From the NCBI GenBank assembly GCA_003224525.1, contig QHZB01000189.1:1-64000 (forward strand): a stretch of 64,000 bases of DNA, in the 5' to 3' direction. Below, piece by piece: positions 1,220-22,215 of this stretch (position 1 is the stretch's first letter; each line of letters starts with the position of its first letter). The notes under the pieces are model-generated. The model had not been told where the DNA came from. It did not search any database and saw nothing but the letters and a program-made list of their open reading frames with translations. This stretch comes from Acidobacteriota bacterium. GTDB lineage: Bacteria > Acidobacteriota > Terriglobia > Acidiferrales > UBA7541. A program made the position numbers and the translations under genes.

Positions 1220-1838
1220 GATAACGGTTCTGCTGGCCGACGATCACGCTCTGGTACGCCGCGGATTTCGCCGTATGCTGGAAGATGACCCGGAAATCTC
1301 CGTCGTTGGAGAAGCCAGCGACGGTAAAGAAGCCGTCCGCCTGGCCTGCGCGCTGCGGCCCAGGGTCACCGTGATGGACTGCGCGATGCCGGAACTGAGC
1401 GGTATCGAAGCGGCACGAAAAATCCTGGAAAAATTCCCGCAAGCGGGAATCTTGATGTTAAGCATGCATTCCGAGGAAACGCTGGTGAACCAGGCGCTCG
1501 AAGCGGGCGCGCGCGGCTACGTGCTGAAAAATGCCATGAACCTCGACCTGGTCAGCGCCGTCAAGAGCATCGCGGCAGGCATGACAGTGCTGGACCCGCA
1601 AGTGGCCCGGCCGGACACGCTCAAGGGGGAGCGCGGCGGAGGATTGACGCCCCGCGAACTGGAAATCCTGAAACACATCGTGGCCGGCAAGTCGAACAAG
1701 GAAATCGCAGCGGGCTTGAATCTCAGTGTGAATACAGTCGCGGTGCACCGCGCCAATATCATGGAGACGCTGGGGATTCACAAGACGGCAGAGCTGGTGG
1801 TCTACGCGATTCGAAATGGTCTGGTGAACTTGCCTTGA
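1209..1838 (+). CDS. Response regulator, NarL/FixJ family
   Basis: Transcription factor of 209 residues and the cognate partner of the preceding kinase. The receiver domain has the acidic pair D11/D12, phospho-acceptor D57 (VMDCAMPEL) and conserved K107 (YVLKN). The C-terminal LuxR-type HTH reads LTPRELEILKHIVAGKSNKEIA. The chosen ATG overlaps the kinase stop codon; an ATG two codons earlier is equally in frame. The stop overlaps the start of the next gene as TTGA, so regulator and ASPIC/UnbV protein are probably translationally coupled. The regulon is unknown, but the co-oriented cytochrome locus downstream is an obvious candidate. Confidence 0.92.
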   Translation: MAPKITVLLADDHALVRRGFRRMLEDDPEISVVGEASDGKEAVRLACALRPRVTVMDCAMPELSGIEAARKILEKFPQAGILMLSMHSEETLVNQALEAGARGYVLKNAMNLDLVSAVKSIAAGMTVLDPQVARPDTLKGERGGGLTPRELEILKHIVAGKSNKEIAAGLNLSVNTVAVHRANIMETLGIHKTAELVVYAIRNGLVNLP

Positions 1839-3529
1839 ACCGGCGAGACTTCCTTTTCAAAACAATCAGCGCAGGACTAACCACGGCGGCGCCACCTTGG
1901 ACATTCGCTAATCCAGCCTCTTCCCTAGGATTCCGTCTGACCGATGTTACGAACGCGGCCGGCATCCAGTTCCGGCACAACAGCGGCGCTTATGGCGGCA
2001 AATTGCTCCCGGAGACGCTGGGCGCAGGCTGCGCGTTCCTCGATTACGACGACGATGGCTGGCAGGACATTCTGCTGGTGAACGGCATGGACTGGCCCGG
2101 ACACAAACGCCAGCGATCCACGCTGCGGCTCTACCGCAACAACCGCAACGGCACATTCACCGACGTTACCCGAACCGCGGGCCTCGACGTCGAGATGTAT
2201 GGAATGGGAGTGGCCGTCGGGGATTACAACAACGATGGTTTTCCGGATATTTTCATCACTTGCGTGGGGCAGAGCCGGCTTTTTCGCAACACCGGCAAAG
2301 GAACATTTGTTGATGCCACGCGTGCGAGCGGCCTCTTTGGGCGTCAGGGCTTCAGCACTTCCGCGCTGTGGTTTGATTATGACCGGGATGGCTTGCTGGA
2401 TCTTTTCCTGTGCAACTACGTGCGCTGGTCTCCCGAGCACGATGTCTTCTGCAGCCTCGATGGTTCGCACAAATCGTACTGCACTCCGGAAGCGTATCGC
2501 GGGGATACTTGCTGGCTCTTCCACAACCGTGGAAACGGCACTTTCGAAGAGGTGACCGCCACGAGCGGCATTTTTGACAGCAGCTCAAAATCTCTTGGCG
2601 TCGCCATGTTCGACTACGACCAAGATGGCTGGCCCGATCTTGTGGTGGCCAACGACACGCAACCCAATAAGTTGTACCGTAATTTAAGAAACAGCAAATT
2701 CAAGGATGTCGCGGTGGAGGCCGGTCTGGCGTTTAGCACAGAAGGAAAGGCCCGCGCCGGCATGGGCGTCGACACCGGAGATTTCGATGGCTCGGGCAAG
2801 CCGGGTGTGGCCATCACCAACTTTGACAATGAAATGATCGGCCTGTATCGCGCCGCTGCTCCGGGAGTTTTCGACGACGTGTCCATTCCATCCGGCATCG
2901 GGGCAGCATCCAGGAACACTCTCGGATTTGGCTGTATGTTCTTCGATGTGGACCTTGATGGCGCTCTGGACCTGGCGGTGGCCAATGGCCACATCGACGA
3001 AACCGTCAGAAATATCCGCGGCAACACCGGATACGCGCAACCGCCGCAGCTCTTTCTGAACCAGGGCGGTGGAAAGTTTCTAGATGTGGCGAACGGGGCT
3101 GGAGGAGGATTTGAGACTCCGAAAGTTGGACGGGGACTGGCCTACGGCGATTTCGACCGCGACGGTGACCTGGACATCTTGATGACCACCAACAATGGGC
3201 CAGCGTACTTATACCGGAACGATCCAGAGGGGCATCCTCGGAGCATTCGATTTCGCCTGAAGGGTACGAAGTCGAATCGCGATGCGATCGGCTCGTCGAT
3301 CCGCATTTACTACGAGGGGCACACGCAATCGAGGATGGTCCGGGGGGGCTCTAGCTATCTTTCTCAATCGGAATTGCCGGTAACGTTTGGTCTCGGCTTG
3401 CGTGAAAAAATCGATCGCGTGGTGATCGACTGGCCCAACGGGCGCACGGAGGAATACAAAGATCTGCGTGCCGGAGAAATGTACAACTGCATGGAAACAA
3501 AAGGGATAGATGCTCAGCATGGTTTCTAA
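1835..3529 (+). CDS. Exported FG-GAP/VCBS-repeat protein with ASPIC/UnbV C-terminus
   Basis: Predicted extracytoplasmic beta-propeller-like protein of 564 residues. The N-terminus has a twin-arginine motif (RRDFLFK) before a hydrophobic stretch, so Tat export is likely. Repeated calcium-binding-like loops of FG-GAP/VCBS type (DYDDDGWQD, DYNNDGFPD, DYDRDGLLD, DYDQDGWPD, DVDLDGALD, DFDRDGDLD) fill the body. The last 90 or so residues are an ASPIC/UnbV domain (GTKSNRDAIGS, GGSSYLSQSE, DWPNGR). The start is TTG, overlapping the regulator stop by TTGA. A close paralogue lies a few kb downstream. Family function is poorly known; adhesion or scaffold roles are usually proposed. Confidence 0.88.
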   Translation: MNRRDFLFKTISAGLTTAAPPWTFANPASSLGFRLTDVTNAAGIQFRHNSGAYGGKLLPETLGAGCAFLDYDDDGWQDILLVNGMDWPGHKRQRSTLRLYRNNRNGTFTDVTRTAGLDVEMYGMGVAVGDYNNDGFPDIFITCVGQSRLFRNTGKGTFVDATRASGLFGRQGFSTSALWFDYDRDGLLDLFLCNYVRWSPEHDVFCSLDGSHKSYCTPEAYRGDTCWLFHNRGNGTFEEVTATSGIFDSSSKSLGVAMFDYDQDGWPDLVVANDTQPNKLYRNLRNSKFKDVAVEAGLAFSTEGKARAGMGVDTGDFDGSGKPGVAITNFDNEMIGLYRAAAPGVFDDVSIPSGIGAASRNTLGFGCMFFDVDLDGALDLAVANGHIDETVRNIRGNTGYAQPPQLFLNQGGGKFLDVANGAGGGFETPKVGRGLAYGDFDRDGDLDILMTTNNGPAYLYRNDPEGHPRSIRFRLKGTKSNRDAIGSSIRIYYEGHTQSRMVRGGSSYLSQSELPVTFGLGLREKIDRVVIDWPNGRTEEYKDLRAGEMYNCMETKGIDAQHGF

Positions 3530-3642
3530 TGCTTTTGCATTATTGCCAGCCTCGGCGCTAAAACATATAAGTGTGCCCACTAGCAACAGCGCCTCCGGCT
3601 CCGCCAGATCCTGGCTCGCTTCGGGGCACCCCAAACTGAATT

Positions 3643-3679
3643 GCGGCCGGATGTTACTCACACATCCGGCCGCTGTTTT
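3643..3679 (+). terminator. Strong hairpin terminator after the first ASPIC gene
   Basis: A perfect 12-bp inverted repeat (GCGGCCGGATGT / ACATCCGGCCGC) encloses a 7-nt loop and is followed by TGTTTT. It separates the kinase-regulator-ASPIC unit from the cytochrome gene. It also argues against any cytochrome start codon inside it. Confidence 0.8.
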
Positions 3680-3712
3680 GATAGCCGCAAACTGCACATC
3701 CAGGTGGAGATG

Positions 3713-6601
3713 ATGCAAATTGATTTTGTAAAGCGGTGGTTATCACGAATCCTGGCTGCGCTGACCGTCAGCGCGGTTTACCTGTATGGATATCCCTCGG
3801 CCACGATTTTTTACTTTGTTGCGGATTTGTTTCACATCGCGATCGGAACCGGCTTAACGATCCTCCTCATTTTTTACGTTGTACGCTTGCTCCCCCGCGA
3901 AACGCTTCTGGCCCGGCTGGGCTGGATCTCGCTGGCTACGGGAGCGCTGCTCGGAATCGTGTTGATCAAAATCGGTACGCCTCTTCGGCTGAGGACGTGG
4001 CTTTATGCGCATATTGCGTTGTGCGTTCTTGGCACGCTTTTTCTGGCGACGTCGTGGCTCTTTTCAAAAGGGTGGCCGGGTGACGGCGTCCTCCCGCGCG
4101 GCTTTGGATTTGCAGCGCTGACGCTACTGATGGCGGGTATCGCCGCAGGCACATGGTGGACGCGCGAAGTCGCCTGGAAGAACGCAAATCGCATCTCCAA
4201 TCCGCTGATGCCTCCGGAAACAATGGACAGCGAAGGTGATGGCCCTCAGGGGAAGTTCTTCCCCAGCTCGGCGCAGACCAAACATGGCGGCAACATTCCA
4301 TCCAAGTACTTCATGAAATCGGACGCCTGCCAGCGCTGCCATGCGGATATCTATAAGCAGTGGGACAGCTCGATGCACCATTTCTCTTCCTTCAACAACC
4401 AGTGGTACCGCAAGAGCATCGAGTACATGCAGGAGGTCGCGGGCGTGCGTTCCTCGAAGTGGTGCGCGGGCTGCCACGATCCTGCGCTGCTCTACAGCGG
4501 TTTGTTCGATACGCCGATCAAGCAAATTGTTGATCGCCCGGAAGCTCGCGCCGGCCTCGGCTGCCTGATGTGCCACAGCATTGTGGAAGTGAAAAGCACC
4601 ATGGGCCAGGGTGATTTTTTCCTGGAGTACCCGAAACTCCACGAGCTGGCGGCCAGCGAGAATCCGTTGGTGCGCAGGTTGCACGACTTTGTGGTTCGCC
4701 TGAACCCTGAGCCGCATCGCCGCACTTTTCTGAAGCCCTTCATGCGCGCGGACACCGCGGAGTTTTGTTCTTCGTGCCACAAGGTCCATCTGGACGTCCC
4801 GGTGAATTACTACCGCTGGATTCGCGGCTTCAATGAATATGACAACTGGCAGGCCAGCGGCGTTTCCGGCCAGGGCGCGCGCGCCTTCTACTATCCGAAG
4901 TCGCCCATGAATTGCGCGGATTGCCACATGCCGCAAGTTCCCTCGAACGATGACGGCAACGTTGACGGCCTTATCCATTCGCATCGCTTCCCCGGCGCGA
5001 ACACGGCGGTGCCCACAGCGAATCAGGACCCGGCGCAATTTGAGTTCGCCAAAAAGTTTCTTCAGGACAATCAACTGACCGTCGATATTTTCGCGATCTC
5101 GCCCGCGGAGAAAGAAGCGAACGTGCCCGTACGGAGCGAAATTGGAAGGCCCGAACTCTCGACGACTTTCGCCGTCGGCGAAGAATCTGATATTTCACTG
5201 CCGAAAGGCCCATCCGGCGAAATCCGCCCGGTCACCGCTCCCATCGATCGCACCGATGCGGCGGTGCGGCGGGGCGATAACGCTCGCGTGGATGTGGTCG
5301 TGCGCACGCGCAAGGTCGGGCACTTCTTCCCCGGCGGCACGGTTGACGCTTTCGATGTGTGGCTTGAGCTGCAAGCCACGGATGAAAAGGGCCAAACGAT
5401 TTTCTGGAGCGGGAAAGTGGAGGACGATGGCAAAGGCCCGGTCGAGCCGGGGGCGCACTTCTATCGTTCGCTGCAGATCGATGGCCACGGCAATGCCATC
5501 AACAAACGAAACGCGTGGGCGACGCGCTCGGTCGTTTACGTCCATCTGATCCCTCCCGGCGCGGCGGATACGGCGCACTATCGTCTCCACATTCCGGAAA
5601 ATGCGGAAGACAAAATTACTCTGCATGCTCGGCTCAACTACCGGAAGTTCAGTTGGTTTAATACACGCTTCTCGTTCGCGGGGGTCGAGGCGGACAAAAC
5701 CGGGCCGGGCGACCTTGGCACAGCAGCCACGCCTGATTACGACGACCGCAAGTGGGCCTTCAACCGTGATACATCGACGGTGTCCGGCAACCTCAAGGCC
5801 ATTCCGGATCTTCCCATCATTACAATTGCCGAAGACACCAAAACGTTGCGAGTTCTCGCGCGGAATGCTGCTGCGCCCCAACCGAAGACAGTTGCCACGA
5901 AAGAGGATTGGACTCGGTGGAACGATTACGGAATTGGGCTTTTTCTGCAGGGCGATTTGAAAGCGGCCGCCGCTGCGTTCGAGGAAATCACACGGGCCGA
6001 TCCGCAAAATCCCGACGGCTGGACCAACATCGGCCGCGTTCTGGTGCAGGAGGGGGATACCGCGGGCGCGCGAAAAGTGCTGGAGAAGTCCCTGGCGATT
6101 GACTCGCAGCTTGCGCGGACAAATTTCTTCTACGCACGCGCCCTCAAAGAAGATGGAGACTACCAGGGCGCCATCGCTCACTTGCAAATCGTGCTCGCGC
6201 AGTTCCCGCGCGACCGCGTCGTGCACAACGAGCTTGGTCGTGTTCTTTTTCTTCAGAAGCGCTACGCCGACGCGGTGAAGGAATTCGAACAGACACTTTC
6301 GATCGATCCCGAAGACCTGCAAGCGCATTACAACCTGATGCTGTGCTACAACGGCCTGGGCGATGACGCCAAAGCGAACGAACACAAGGCGCGGTATCTG
6401 CGATTCAAGGCCGATGAATCGGCCCAGGCCATTACCGGGCCGTACCGCCAAACTCATCCCCAGGACAACAACGAGCGGCAGGCGATTCACGAACACGTCA
6501 GCGTCACCCTTACACCGGCGCGGACCAAAAAGGCGCTTACGGCGAGGGCCTCAACGCAAAGTGTAAACCGGGAGCGTGCCCGCCCCGGCGGTTCGAAATA
6601 A
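3713..6601 (+). CDS. Membrane multihaem cytochrome c with C-terminal TPR repeats
   Basis: Predicted electron-transfer protein of about 962 residues. The N-terminal 150 residues hold about four membrane helices. Five CXXCH haem-binding motifs follow: CQRCH (about 206), CAGCH (251), CLMCH (284), CSSCH (352) and CADCH (401). Scattered His residues could be distal ligands, as in the cytochrome c554 superfamily. Residues from about 740 form TPR repeats (WTNIGRVLVQEGDTAGAR, VHNELGRVLFLQKRYADAV, AHYNLMLCYNGLGDDAKA). A ribosome site (AGGTGGAG) precedes two consecutive ATGs and fixes the start. The haem domain should lie outside the cytoplasm. The electron donor and acceptor are unknown. Confidence 0.88.
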   Translation: MQIDFVKRWLSRILAALTVSAVYLYGYPSATIFYFVADLFHIAIGTGLTILLIFYVVRLLPRETLLARLGWISLATGALLGIVLIKIGTPLRLRTWLYAHIALCVLGTLFLATSWLFSKGWPGDGVLPRGFGFAALTLLMAGIAAGTWWTREVAWKNANRISNPLMPPETMDSEGDGPQGKFFPSSAQTKHGGNIPSKYFMKSDACQRCHADIYKQWDSSMHHFSSFNNQWYRKSIEYMQEVAGVRSSKWCAGCHDPALLYSGLFDTPIKQIVDRPEARAGLGCLMCHSIVEVKSTMGQGDFFLEYPKLHELAASENPLVRRLHDFVVRLNPEPHRRTFLKPFMRADTAEFCSSCHKVHLDVPVNYYRWIRGFNEYDNWQASGVSGQGARAFYYPKSPMNCADCHMPQVPSNDDGNVDGLIHSHRFPGANTAVPTANQDPAQFEFAKKFLQDNQLTVDIFAISPAEKEANVPVRSEIGRPELSTTFAVGEESDISLPKGPSGEIRPVTAPIDRTDAAVRRGDNARVDVVVRTRKVGHFFPGGTVDAFDVWLELQATDEKGQTIFWSGKVEDDGKGPVEPGAHFYRSLQIDGHGNAINKRNAWATRSVVYVHLIPPGAADTAHYRLHIPENAEDKITLHARLNYRKFSWFNTRFSFAGVEADKTGPGDLGTAATPDYDDRKWAFNRDTSTVSGNLKAIPDLPIITIAEDTKTLRVLARNAAAPQPKTVATKEDWTRWNDYGIGLFLQGDLKAAAAAFEEITRADPQNPDGWTNIGRVLVQEGDTAGARKVLEKSLAIDSQLARTNFFYARALKEDGDYQGAIAHLQIVLAQFPRDRVVHNELGRVLFLQKRYADAVKEFEQTLSIDPEDLQAHYNLMLCYNGLGDDAKANEHKARYLRFKADESAQAITGPYRQTHPQDNNERQAIHEHVSVTLTPARTKKALTARASTQSVNRERARPGGSK

Positions 6602-6638
6602 TCTTCAGGATGACAGCCGTCTCAAGGAGCTGCGAAAA

Positions 6639-7205
6639 ATGACCTGGATCAAGACTGTTCGAATAGACGAAGACAATCGCGTCAAGAGCGCGATGGAAGC
6701 GCAACGCAAGGTCTATCCGGTCGAATACGCTACCCCCGTCCATCCCGTGAATGACGGCCAAATGTCCGGCATCGTAGCGAGCCATACGCTTCTCCCCGAT
6801 GTGCTCTTCCATGCCTTCAGCACGTTTGGCGCGCTGATGTCGCCGGATTTGCCTCTCAAACGGCATCAGCACGAAATGATCGCCACAATGGTTTCCGTGA
6901 CGAATCGCTGCCACTATTGAATCGAATCACACGCAGAGTTTCTGCGTCGGGTCACGCTGGATGAAACGATGGTCAATGCGCTGCGCAATGACTATAGGAC
7001 CGCGTCAATCAGCGAGCAGGATCGCACCATGCTGGACTATGTGGTGAAGCTGACGAAAGACGCAACGAAATGCGGCCGGGAAGATCACGTCAAGCTGCGC
7101 GCCGCTGGCTTCGACGATCGCGGCATTCTGCAGATCACGCTGATCGCGTCCTGGTTCAACTACATCAATCGCGCGGCCGATGCACTCGGCGTGGGCCGCG
7201 ATTGA
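6639..7205 (+). CDS. Probable selenoprotein: AhpD-like / peroxidase-related carboxymuconolactone decarboxylase-fold protein (UGA at codon 94)
   Basis: Read through an in-frame TGA, the gene gives a 188-residue protein of the peroxidase-related AhpD/CMD fold, the usual family length. A good ribosome site (AAGGAG, 9 nt upstream) sets the ATG. The active site reads C91-H92-Y93-U94-x3-H98 with E79 twelve residues before C91. This spacing (E-x11-C-x2-C-x3-H) is that of the AhpD catalytic residues, with Sec at the second (resolving) Cys. Downstream sequence ([42 protein letters not shown]) continues the family without a gap. A SECIS-like hairpin follows the UGA. The role is probably thiol/peroxide redox chemistry. 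The alternative is a pseudogene with a Cys-to-stop change. Confidence 0.82.
6918..6947 (+). promoter_or_regulatory. In-frame UGA codon and bacterial SECIS-like hairpin
   Basis: TGA is followed 10 nt later by a perfect 7-bp stem (ACGCAGA / TCTGCGT) closing a three-base GTT loop. The loop G is the 18th base after the UGA. Known bacterial SECIS elements lie in the coding region just after UGA, with a G at the start of the apical loop and roughly 16-37 nt between UGA and loop, so the geometry fits. SelB would be the expected ligand; no sel genes lie in this window. Confidence 0.72.
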
Positions 7206-7216
7206 AACTTGGGGGA

Positions 7217-8932
7217 ATGGTGAAGCGTTCGCTCGCAACGATTCTAGTTTTTGCGCTGGCAATACTTCTCGTCGGAGAAACAGGAATCGGAGCAACACCA
7301 GAAACCTCAACGATTCAGTTCCGGGATGTCACGCAGCAGGCGGGAATCCGCTTCGTCCACAACAATGGCGCCTTCGGGAAGAAATTCCTTCCCGAAACCA
7401 TGGGACCGGGTGTGGCCGTCATTGACTACGACAATGACGGCTGGCCAGACATTTTTCTCGTGAACGGCATGGACTGGCCCGGGCACGTTCAGAAGCACTC
7501 GACGCCCAAGCTCTATCACAACAATCATGACGGCACGTTCACGGACGCAACCCACAAGGCGGGACTGGACATCGATATGTTTGGAATGGGGGTGGCGGTC
7601 GGGGACTACGACAACGATGGCTACGACGATCTTTTTGTTACTGCCTACGGCCAAAGTCACCTTTTTCATAACAACGGCAACGGCACTTTCACAGATGTCA
7701 CACGGAAGGCGGGGCTGCTGGGGCCAAAGGAATTCAGCACCAGCGCCGCGTGGGTTGACTACGACAAGGACGGCCATCTCGATCTGGTCTTCGCCAATTA
7801 TGTCCAGTGGACCCCGGAAAGCGATCTCTACTGCACGCTCGACGGCAAAAGCAAGTCCTACTGCACTCCGGAATCGTACAAAGGCACTTCCGTCCGTCTC
7901 TGGCACAATCGCGGCAACGGCACGTTTGAAGACGTGACACAAAAAGCCGGACTCGGCGACCCAACGTCGAAAACTCTCGGCATTGCCGTGCTCGATTACG
8001 ACAGTGATGGCTGGCCCGATCTTTTGTTTTCGAATGATACCCAGCCGAACAAGCTATATCGCAACAACGGCAACGGCACGTTTGCCGAAAAGGCGGTCGT
8101 CGCAGGAATCGCTTTCAGCGAAGACGGCGTTGCCCGCGCAGGCATGGGCGTGGATGCGGCGGATTACGACCACTCGGGCTTCCCCAGCCTCTTGATCACT
8201 AATTTCGCGAACCAGATGCTCTCGCTTTATCACAATGAAGGAAAGGGACTCTTCGTCGATGAAGCTCCGCGCTCGGAGATCGGGCGCGCTTCCCTGCTCA
8301 CTCTTGGCTTTGGCTGCTTCTTCTTCGATTATGACCTCGACGGCTGGCCTGACGTTCTGGTCGCGAACGGCCATATCGATGCCGATATCCAGCGTGTGCA
8401 GGCGAACGTGAAATACGCCATGCCGCCGCATCTGTTCCGCAATATCGGCAAGGGGAAATTCGAAGAGGTCACCAAGTCACTCGGGCAATCCTTCGCCACT
8501 CCACGAGTGGGGCGCGGCGCCGCCTACGCCGATTTCAATAACGACGGCCGGCTGGACCTTCTTCTCTCCACCAATGGCGGCCCGGTGTATTTGTTTCGGA
8601 ATGAAGCACAGGGCTCTGCGGCATCGAACAAGAGTCTGCGCGTCAAGTTGACCGGCACAAAATCCAACCGCGATGGCATCGGGACAACTGTGAGGCTGAC
8701 GTCCGGGGGAGAAACGCAGACGCAAATGCTTCGCAGCGGCTCCAGCTACCTCTCCGCCAGCGAACTCGTTCTGACCTTTGGCCTTGCGCTCAAAGACAAA
8801 GCCGACATAGTCGAAATTCGCTGGCCCAGTGGTCAGGTCGATCGGCTCTCGAATGTGAGCGCAGGCCAAACCGGGACGGTGACCGAAGGAAAGGGCATCA
8901 CCGCCTCCCGCGCCTACAGCAAGAAAAACTGA
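7217..8932 (+). CDS. Secreted FG-GAP/VCBS-repeat protein with ASPIC/UnbV C-terminus (second copy)
   Basis: Paralogue (571 residues) of the ASPIC/UnbV protein upstream, collinear along its whole length (shared stretches such as NGMDWPGH, KSYCTPE, NDTQPNKLYRN, GTKSNRD). Here the N-terminus is a Sec-type signal peptide (MVKRSLATILVFALAILLVG) instead of a Tat signal. Repeat loops include DYDNDGWPD, DYDNDGYDD, DYDKDGHLD, DYDSDGWPD, DYDLDGWPD and DFNNDGRLD. It starts 11 nt after the AhpD-like gene, preceded by GGGGGA, so the two are likely cotranscribed. Function is unproven; localisation is probably periplasmic or cell-surface. Confidence 0.87.
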   Translation: MVKRSLATILVFALAILLVGETGIGATPETSTIQFRDVTQQAGIRFVHNNGAFGKKFLPETMGPGVAVIDYDNDGWPDIFLVNGMDWPGHVQKHSTPKLYHNNHDGTFTDATHKAGLDIDMFGMGVAVGDYDNDGYDDLFVTAYGQSHLFHNNGNGTFTDVTRKAGLLGPKEFSTSAAWVDYDKDGHLDLVFANYVQWTPESDLYCTLDGKSKSYCTPESYKGTSVRLWHNRGNGTFEDVTQKAGLGDPTSKTLGIAVLDYDSDGWPDLLFSNDTQPNKLYRNNGNGTFAEKAVVAGIAFSEDGVARAGMGVDAADYDHSGFPSLLITNFANQMLSLYHNEGKGLFVDEAPRSEIGRASLLTLGFGCFFFDYDLDGWPDVLVANGHIDADIQRVQANVKYAMPPHLFRNIGKGKFEEVTKSLGQSFATPRVGRGAAYADFNNDGRLDLLLSTNGGPVYLFRNEAQGSAASNKSLRVKLTGTKSNRDGIGTTVRLTSGGETQTQMLRSGSSYLSASELVLTFGLALKDKADIVEIRWPSGQVDRLSNVSAGQTGTVTEGKGITASRAYSKKN

Positions 8933-10553: not shown

Positions 10554-10774
10554 TCGAAAGACCCAATGCAAAGAATCAAAGAAATTGCATTTGACTCCGT
10601 CCGGTTCGGCCCGAAGGCGCGCCAATGCAACGATGCGTGCTGCGCAAGCACGACCCTATCTCGGGGGCGCTTTCTCCGCCGCAGGCGCGAACAGCTCCTC
10701 TACCTGCAAGATTGGAAGATGATGCAGTCCTGTGCGACTGCAGACCAAAGGTGAATGAAAACATCAGGCAGAAC

Positions 10775-10821
10775 TGGTAGCGCTACCGGGAATCGAACCC
10801 GTATTTTAGCCTTGAGAGGGC
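10775..10821 (-). pseudogene. 3' half of interrupted host tRNA-Glu(CTC), left attachment site
   Basis: From 5' to 3' on the minus strand it contains the anticodon loop CTCTCAA, the 3' anticodon stem GGCTA, a T-arm (ACGGG TTCGATT CCCGG), the acceptor strand TAGCGCT, discriminator A and an encoded CCA. No matching 5' half adjoins it. The missing half (anticodon stem TAGCC, a perfect partner for GGCTA) is found 9.3 kb away. The T-stem has one A-G mismatch, possibly decay after disruption. The shared core with the other end is GCCCTCTCA. Confidence 0.85.
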
Positions 10822-10838
10822 GGAATCGAGGAAACCGG

Positions 10839-12008
10839 ATGCTACAACACGAGATTAGCGAAGGGTTTCTGCGGAAGGTAGGCCGGAACTACTTCATGAT
10901 TCTGACGATTGACGGCCAGCGCCAACAGCGTCGAACAGGCACGGCTGTTGAAGTCAAGGCAGCGGAAATGCTGGAGGACTGGAAGGCTCAAGCCAAGTCT
11001 GGCGTGGTGGAAGAGGCCCGGCTGCGTTACGAAGCGATGCGGGACGAGTACATTCAGAAAGGTGGTAAACAGGTTCAAGAGAGCATCCTGCGCGATCTGA
11101 ATATGTTCTTCAAGAACATCCGCATAAGCGCCATCACAGTCAAGAAGCTTGATGAGTTTCGCACCTGGCGGGAGAGCCTGGCGCAGGTTGTTGAATACCG
11201 GAACGAAACCCTGGCAAAGGAAATATCCCTACGCATTCAGAAAGCGACCAGCAACGGGCGGAAGAAACTTTCGCCGGGCCAAAAGGAAAAGATCGAAGAA
11301 GAGGCAACGACCTGGGTTGACAACGGCGTGAAGGCCACAACCAATCGCCGCTTGACCGTTCTCCGTGCCATGTTCAACTTTCTTGTGAAGCGTGGCACGA
11401 TTCAGAAAACTGATGTTCCTTCGTTCCCTATCGCAAACAATGTTGACAACAAGCGCCGAGGCTACCTCGACAAAGAGGACATGGACAAGCTTCTCAAAAT
11501 CCTCCCCGGATACCTCCACCCGTTCGTGCGCTTTCTTTATGCAACAGGCATGCGTTCCGGCCAGGCTTCACAACTAACCTGGGATATGGTCGATGCGAAG
11601 GTCACGGAACTGCACGTCCCTGGTGAACTCACTAAGAACGGTGAAGACTTCACTCTTCCACTCATGTATCGCGACGGTATGCCGATGTTTGATTTCGTAA
11701 CGGACTTGAAAAAATCTGTGCGTCAACCGCACGAGCCGATCTTCGATACAACTGACTTTCGTGGCCAGTGGCGTCAAGCTTGCGCAAAATTAGGACTTGG
11801 AATCGACAATCCTGAAACCCAGGTCTATCGCGGGTTGCGTCCTCATGATTTCGGTCGCACGGCATGCCGCAACATGATTAAAGCGGGTATCCCTCAAGCA
11901 GTCGCAATGGCGATCTCGGGACACAAAACTGATAGCATGTTCCGTCGCTACGCCATCATGGACAAGAGCGCCGTACAGGAAGCGTTCGAAGTTCTCGCTA
12001 GCAAGTGA
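10839..12008 (+). CDS. Tyrosine recombinase (integrase)
   Basis: Site-specific recombinase of 389 residues, expected to integrate and excise the element. The N-terminal arm- and core-binding regions are followed by the catalytic domain, with Arg in ATGMRSGQASQLTW, HDFGRT (H-x2-R), SGHKT and the nucleophile in RRYAIMDK. An insertion rich in charged residues (about 130-175) lies in the core-binding domain. The ATG is preceded by GAGGAAA. A longer frame exists upstream but reads through the tRNA remnant and is unlikely to be translated. The gene lies 18 bp inside the left attachment core and is followed after 15 bp by the element's tRNA. Confidence 0.92.
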   Translation: MLQHEISEGFLRKVGRNYFMILTIDGQRQQRRTGTAVEVKAAEMLEDWKAQAKSGVVEEARLRYEAMRDEYIQKGGKQVQESILRDLNMFFKNIRISAITVKKLDEFRTWRESLAQVVEYRNETLAKEISLRIQKATSNGRKKLSPGQKEKIEEEATTWVDNGVKATTNRRLTVLRAMFNFLVKRGTIQKTDVPSFPIANNVDNKRRGYLDKEDMDKLLKILPGYLHPFVRFLYATGMRSGQASQLTWDMVDAKVTELHVPGELTKNGEDFTLPLMYRDGMPMFDFVTDLKKSVRQPHEPIFDTTDFRGQWRQACAKLGLGIDNPETQVYRGLRPHDFGRTACRNMIKAGIPQAVAMAISGHKTDSMFRRYAIMDKSAVQEAFEVLASK

Positions 12009-12014
12009 TAGAAT
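11985..12014 (+). promoter_or_regulatory. Candidate promoter for the element-borne tRNA
   Basis: TTCGAA, 18 bases and then TAGAAT lie across the integrase 3' end; the -10-like box ends 9 bases before the mature tRNA 5' end. The -35 match is weak. Cotranscription with the integrase is the alternative. Confidence 0.3.
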
Positions 12015-12023
12015 CTATATCGA

Positions 12024-12098
12024 GGCCCGGTAGTGTAATCGGTTTAACACGTTGCCCTCTCAAGGCAAAGATTACGGGTTCGATTCCCGTCCGGGCTA
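12024..12098 (+). tRNA. tRNA-Glu (anticodon CTC), carried by the element
   Basis: Folds as a complete cloverleaf: acceptor GGCCCGG / CCGGGCT (one G-U), D-stem GTGT / ACAC, anticodon stem TTGCC / GGCAA with loop CTCTCAA (anticodon CTC), T-arm ACGGG TTCGATT CCCGT and discriminator A. CCA is not encoded, whereas the interrupted host copy encodes CCA, so the two have different origins. It would read GAG codons. It lies inside the element that destroys a host tRNA-Glu(CTC), and so may replace it. Confidence 0.93.
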
Positions 12099-12106
12099 CT
12101 AAACTT

Positions 12107-22125: not shown

Positions 22126-22215
22126 AGTCAGAATAGGGGTAGGGAGAATCGCAAAGGATTCCCCCTCCCTCCGAACCGGACAGGCGGGTCACCCGCATCC
22201 GGCTCTCCAGCCCTT
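22126..22215. repeat. Structured inverted-repeat block, possibly a group II intron remnant
   Basis: Two hairpins lie back to back: GAATC / GATTC flanked by pyrimidine-rich repeats, and a nested CCGGA-GCGGGT / ACCCGC-TCCGG stem. Read on the minus strand, the order (GAGCCGGATGCGGG, GTCCGGTTCGGAGG, then a purine/pyrimidine hairpin) recalls the RNA sequence flanking group II intron reverse transcriptases. No reverse transcriptase is present. The likeness is from memory. Confidence 0.3.

Follow-up and report, generated by a model that had tools for sequence, protein, structure and literature searches.

The Locus and Its Coding Features

The gene analyzed here, from an acidobacterium of soil, lies on the forward strand at positions 6639–7205 of the window, i.e., the whole stretch of 64,000 nucleotides that was studied, and it encodes an AhpD-like, peroxidase-related protein (TIGR01926, Pfam CMD) of 188 amino acids, M1 to D188, which is predicted to be a selenoprotein. 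A Shine-Dalgarno sequence AAGGAG can be read at 6624–6629 (forward strand), 9 nt 5′ of the ATG, in agreement with the good ribosome site and start codon described in an earlier note on this DNA. Translation of 6639–7205 gives 188 codons with one in-frame TGA only, at codon 94 (6918–6920, forward strand), and the terminal stop at 7203–7205 is a TGA as well. The observation of an in-frame TGA in an AhpD-like gene is confirmed. The coding quality claimed earlier for both sides of this codon, with no frameshift, was borne out by the single TGA in 188 codons and by a downstream half that is equally conserved.

Read as selenocysteine (Sec), codon 94 would complete the motif C91-H-Y-U94. The AhpD catalytic set E-x11-C-x2-C-x3-H is matched exactly by E79, C91, U94 and H98, with Sec as the second Cys; the earlier placement of the TGA at the second active-site Cys of the AhpD/CMD family, with the spacing E79-x11-C91-x2-U94-x3-H98, is therefore exact. 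On the forward strand the Glu79 codon (6873–6875, corresponding to AhpD Glu118) and the His98 codon (6930–6932, corresponding to AhpD His137, and at the same time the codon with which the SECIS hairpin region opens) are invariant, and the codon of Cys91, the partner of U94 (6909–6911), is kept in 146/146 Sec-containing homologues of the tree set.

Upstream lies a gene for a cytochrome c554-type/TPR protein (3641–6601, forward strand), ending 37 nt before the selenoprotein gene, and a gene for a CRTAC1-like FG-GAP/ASPIC-UnbV protein (7217–8932, forward strand) follows 11 nt after the stop. Co-transcription with these neighbors in the host is suggested.

The SECIS Hairpin

A putative SECIS hairpin, with a 7-bp stem ACGCAGA/UCUGCGU and the apical loop GUU at 6938–6940, was assigned to 6931–6947 (forward strand) on the basis of synonymous conservation, covariation, fold and agreement with the bacterial SECIS rule. 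This rule asks for a G within the first two loop positions and for 16–37 nt between UGA and loop (PMC13188914). Counted from the UGA, the distance is 10 nt to the start of the hairpin and 17 nt to its loop; with this spacing and the loop GUU, the hairpin agrees with the rule on both counts. A plain minimum free energy test of the 45–60 nt after the UGA was not significant (z +0.5 and −0.3), so that the case for a SECIS element is built on sequence comparisons; the 20-nt hairpin by itself reached z −3.4 with 0/200 shuffles, in a window chosen after the fact.

This comparative evidence for a SECIS element, drawn from sequence alignments, is strong. Synonymous entropy in 30 orthologues averaged 0.11 bits over the hairpin codons +4 to +9 (CAC GCA GAG TTT CTG CGT) versus 1.18 bits for the 91 other conserved degenerate codons, and in 200,000 draws of six random codons a value as low was never reached. 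In the codons flanking the hairpin, four Ser and six Arg codons are in free use. Among 34 diverse UGA genes, 91.6% of the cells were paired versus 28.6–60.5% with slid partners, and 14 of the 34 sequences carried a compensatory swap from G-C to C-G at one pair, two-sided changes being found in only one of the seven hairpin pairs. All seven pairs are formed in 104 of 115 distinct UGA segments, 111 of which have G first in the loop, and most UGA-bearing segments share an identical 18-nt sequence (113 rows, some genomes being counted in both collections). The split between Sec and non-Sec genes is imperfect, as the host's own Cys paralogue (L093) and one homologue with TGG at the Sec codon (L073) keep 6/7 pairs; in six distant UGA homologues 3–5 pairs are found in fixed register. 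The SECIS-like hairpin after the TGA that the earlier note had proposed can thus be placed at 6931–6947, with synonymous constraint and, in distant homologues, compensatory pairing. Among SECIS data sets, the one offered by this gene family is comparatively clean.

Selenocysteine Machinery and Conservation of the UGA Codon

A family-by-family search of the 6.47-Mb genome of the host (98% complete) found selA, selB and selD at 568, 364 and 351 bits, respectively, all above their curated cut-offs, and a tRNA-SeC with anticodon TCA was called by ARAGORN at the Rfam tRNA-Sec match; selA, selB, selC and selD, which the earlier note had proposed to look for in the genome, are all present.

Among 150 relatives, exactly one TGA was found in 39/39 orthologues of ~66% identity or more, a set in which the own gene is counted and two members are cut short. 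The TGA stands at the same codon in 30/30 orthologues that were read directly and in 80/80 loci fetched from a second collection by a scan of named genomes. The 80 loci come from Acidobacteriota (one is labeled Betaproteobacteria) and from a few contigs labeled Gemmatimonadota, Latescibacterota and KSB1; they overlap with the 39-orthologue set, and both sets are mainly acidobacterial. In a phylum-wide sample one TGA was present in 29/30 places at ~60% identity or more, and the sole exception (G163) reads TGC, a Cys codon, at position 94, with Cys91 replaced by Thr; apart from this case the TGA is invariant in the orthologues. Where random stops or frameshifts had been considered as a possible outcome, the orthologues instead show a clean single TGA, and the proposed alignment of homologues revealed Cys in the U94 column of most relatives that lack the TGA. 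Together, the sel machinery and the clean TGA in relatives strongly support the earlier core claim of selenocysteine in an AhpD-like protein, and codon 94 is, as judged from the sequences, almost certainly a selenocysteine codon.

A genuine stop or nonsense mutation at codon 94, leaving a pseudogene or a truncated product of 93 amino acids, is extremely improbable. TGA is a stop in table 11, it also terminates this very gene, and standard, mechanical ORF calling splits or truncates the gene. Against a stop speak the invariance of the TGA in the 39 orthologues and the 80 loci of the second collection, the equal conservation of the downstream half, the restriction of synonymous constraint to the hairpin and the Sec machinery in the genome; a nonsense mutation was rejected on the conservation pattern. 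Recoding of UGA as another amino acid, e.g., Trp, or programmed readthrough without selenium can be given equally little credence. The Trp codon TGG at the Sec position of one distant homologue (L073, G116) would fit such recoding, but TGA serves as an ordinary stop, also at the end of the selenoprotein gene, the aligned residue is Cys in most relatives without TGA, and there is a hairpin of SECIS type carrying G in its loop, together with selABCD and a tRNA-Sec(TCA). Non-Sec recoding was likewise rejected on the conservation pattern, and incorporation of selenocysteine is the reading adopted here.

Co-occurrence of the gene with selA discriminates weakly, because selA is nearly universal among the relatives. 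No close orthologue is listed in eight largely complete selA-negative relatives (G051, G061, G098, G102, G106, G117, G123, G129), and one genome (G025; assembly 85% complete, 800 contigs) carries the selenoprotein gene without a selA match. In the viral contigs searched, no relative of the selenoprotein gene was found.

Several further observations concern Sec codons elsewhere. The TGG of the distant homologue L073 (contig G116:C29), in which 6/7 hairpin pairs are kept, reflects either a sequencing error or Sec having been lost recently. CMD genes that contain Sec occur as close pairs on opposite strands in three cases (L068, L076 and L079, in genomes G090, G092 and G091, respectively), and the members of a pair fall into two separate branches of the tree. 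The host selD (L013; G000:C379:15159-16124, minus strand) contains an in-frame TGA at AGU-AAKLSP, followed ~20 nt 3′ of this TGA by a stable hairpin (GAGUCCAG-GGUUG-CUGGAUUC), and TGA and hairpin together make selD a likely second selenoprotein gene of the host.

Family Assignment, Structure and Known Relatives

The read-through protein matches Pfam PF02627 CMD with 34.3 bits (gathering cut-off 23) and NCBIfam TIGR01926 "peroxidase-related enzyme" with 105.7 bits (cut-off 81.8), and TIGR01926 is also matched by 25/25 members of A1. It stays below the cut-offs of AhpD sensu stricto (TIGR00777; 20.7 versus 191.95 bits), of the AhpD_rel_CFYUT selenoprotein (NF041238; 51.1 versus 175 bits) and of the YciW-related (GroundWater_YciW) (seleno)protein (NF053654; 27.8 versus 310 bits). 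With the selenoproteins of NF041238 and NF053654 it has an AhpD-like core with CxxU in common, while scoring far below both cut-offs.

A selenoprotein described as "AhpD-like protein, TIGR01926, CxxU" was already catalogued, with MCB9421940.1 as example (PMC13188914), and this source attributes the entry to the Sargasso Sea survey (PMC1088965). Compared by family and motif only, the two proteins are alike in subfamily, in motif and in having Sec second; the clade analyzed here differs in being mainly acidobacterial, almost always Sec-containing and near-invariant in its SECIS sequence. The kind, an AhpD-like CxxU protein, is already known, and the acidobacterial gene is a further member of it. 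In the literature retrieved, no description of this AhpD-like selenoprotein clade in Acidobacteriota was found, even though Sec is present in nearly all orthologues identified, and a literature search on acidobacterial selenoproteomes returned nothing relevant.

An AlphaFold model built on the orthologue alignment reached a modest mean pLDDT of 75.5, with block means of 78–98 for residues 71–180 and an unreliable N-terminus. In Foldseek searches with the core of the model, the structures 6k40, 3c1l, 2pfx, 2oyo and 2prr were retrieved at E-values of 5e-9 to 2e-6. These peroxidase-related proteins are the best matches in both sequence and structure, at ~23–28% identity over the whole alignment, and the aligned chains of 2pfx and 3c1l read CxYC, i.e., they have Cys at the Sec position of the host protein. 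The CMD-fold debrominase Bmp8 (6ohi/6ohj) is also among the structural neighbors (E ~1e-4, 13–14% identity). M. tuberculosis AhpD (TIGR00777) shares the E-x11-C-x2-C/U-x3-H set and the helical-hairpin active site, whereas the host protein has Tyr93 for His132 and Sec for Cys133, and the structural match is weak (E 0.045 or worse). Tyr93 in place of the relay residue His132 also occurs in P. aeruginosa PA0269, which shows only weak peroxidase activity (PMC3141380).

Catalytic Role of U94 and Proposed Mechanism

The earlier note had labeled U94 as the resolving residue, which is probably wrong, as U94 aligns with Cys133 of M. tuberculosis AhpD and homologues without Sec usually keep Cys94 but not Cys91. 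In M. tuberculosis AhpD the cross-link to AhpC is formed by the exposed Cys133 and not by the partly buried Cys130 (PMC6626918). In the homologue tree, in which U was coded as Cys, two separate lineages (L175 and L090) changed from Sec to Cys and Cys91 was lost in both; four more distant Cys homologues likewise keep Cys94 and have no Cys91, and two deeper CxxC homologues retain both residues. On the M. tuberculosis precedent and the loss of Cys91 in Cys versions, U94 is taken as the attacker and C91 as its resolving partner, and we consider it likely that U94 is the attacking residue. Such rare replacements of Sec by Cys in which the partner Cys is lost provide a natural test of the attacking residue in AhpD-like enzymes.

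The reverse assignment, a genuine selenoprotein in which Sec resolves and Cys91 attacks the substrate, appears unlikely. Sestrins retain just the first Cys, a pattern that counts for a resolving U94. The same direction is indicated by B. thailandensis AhpD, which behaves in the opposite way to the M. tuberculosis enzyme, its first Cys (Cys131) being more critical than the second (PMC6626918), and for this reason it is likely but not certain that position 94 attacks. A resolving U94 is disfavored by the mixed disulfide with AhpC, which is made by Cys133 and not by Cys130 of the M. tuberculosis enzyme, and by the Cys versions of the family, which retain Cys94, often without Cys91.

With U94 as attacker, the following mechanism can be proposed. 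SelB and Sec-tRNA(UCA) would decode the UGA at codon 94, directed by the hairpin at 6931–6947, to give a presumably cytoplasmic protein with a C91-x-x-U94 redox motif within a predicted all-helical CMD fold. A relay formed by E79 and H98 would activate the U94 selenolate for attack on the substrate, which may be an organic hydroperoxide or a disulfide. A selenenylsulfide between U94 and C91 would then form, and a donor of the thioredoxin or lipoamide type could reduce it back. At the sequence level there is support for Sec coding, the SECIS element, the machinery, the family assignment and the conserved residues E79, C91, U94 and H98, and the explanation as a whole, a cytoplasmic TIGR01926 selenoenzyme of 188 amino acids with SECIS-directed Sec at position 94 and CxxU redox chemistry, is very probably correct.

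Genomic Neighborhood and Possible Functions

The order cytochrome c/TPR–selenoprotein–CRTAC1-like is kept in the majority of loci from the host's genus and family, L038, L039, L041 and L042 being exceptions. This neighborhood is not kept in the other Acidobacteriota or in the other phyla examined, and the neighbor genes were dropped as a clue to function because their context is conserved only near the host lineage. A promoter and terminator scan around the selenoprotein gene gave nothing useful.

A selenoenzyme with a non-peroxide substrate, acting either in a Bmp8-like reductive dehalogenation or with a redox partner among the cytochrome c/TPR and CRTAC1-like proteins, would be compatible with Bmp8 (6ohi/6ohj) as a structural neighbor and with the neighbor genes being conserved at most loci within the genus and family of the host. 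It is judged rather improbable, as the TIGR01926 peroxidase-related structures rank far above Bmp8, the neighborhood is lost in other Acidobacteriota and other phyla, and the neighbors look exported while the selenoprotein, from a reading of its sequence, has no evident signal peptide; a literature search on Bmp8 returned nothing relevant. Similarly doubtful is a Sec-favoring subfamily, distributed across Acidobacteriota and present in a few contigs labeled Gemmatimonadota, Latescibacterota and KSB1, whose chemistry nearly requires selenium and whose function is not generic peroxide removal but, e.g., a dedicated reduction coupled to the cytochrome/CRTAC1-like gene cluster of the host lineage; the near-requirement for selenium is based on the retention of Sec in 29/30 orthologues of the phylum sample.

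Further features were noted in the window. The CRTAC1-like FG-GAP/ASPIC-UnbV protein has a paralogue, and the two genes (1835–3529 and 7217–8932) lie on either side of the pair formed by the cytochrome c/TPR gene and the selenoprotein gene. A tyrosine-type integrase gene (10755–12099) ends 15 nt before a tRNA-Glu(CTC), as in tRNA-integrated elements, and a group II catalytic intron was matched by Rfam with 51.7 bits at 22133–22207 on the minus strand.
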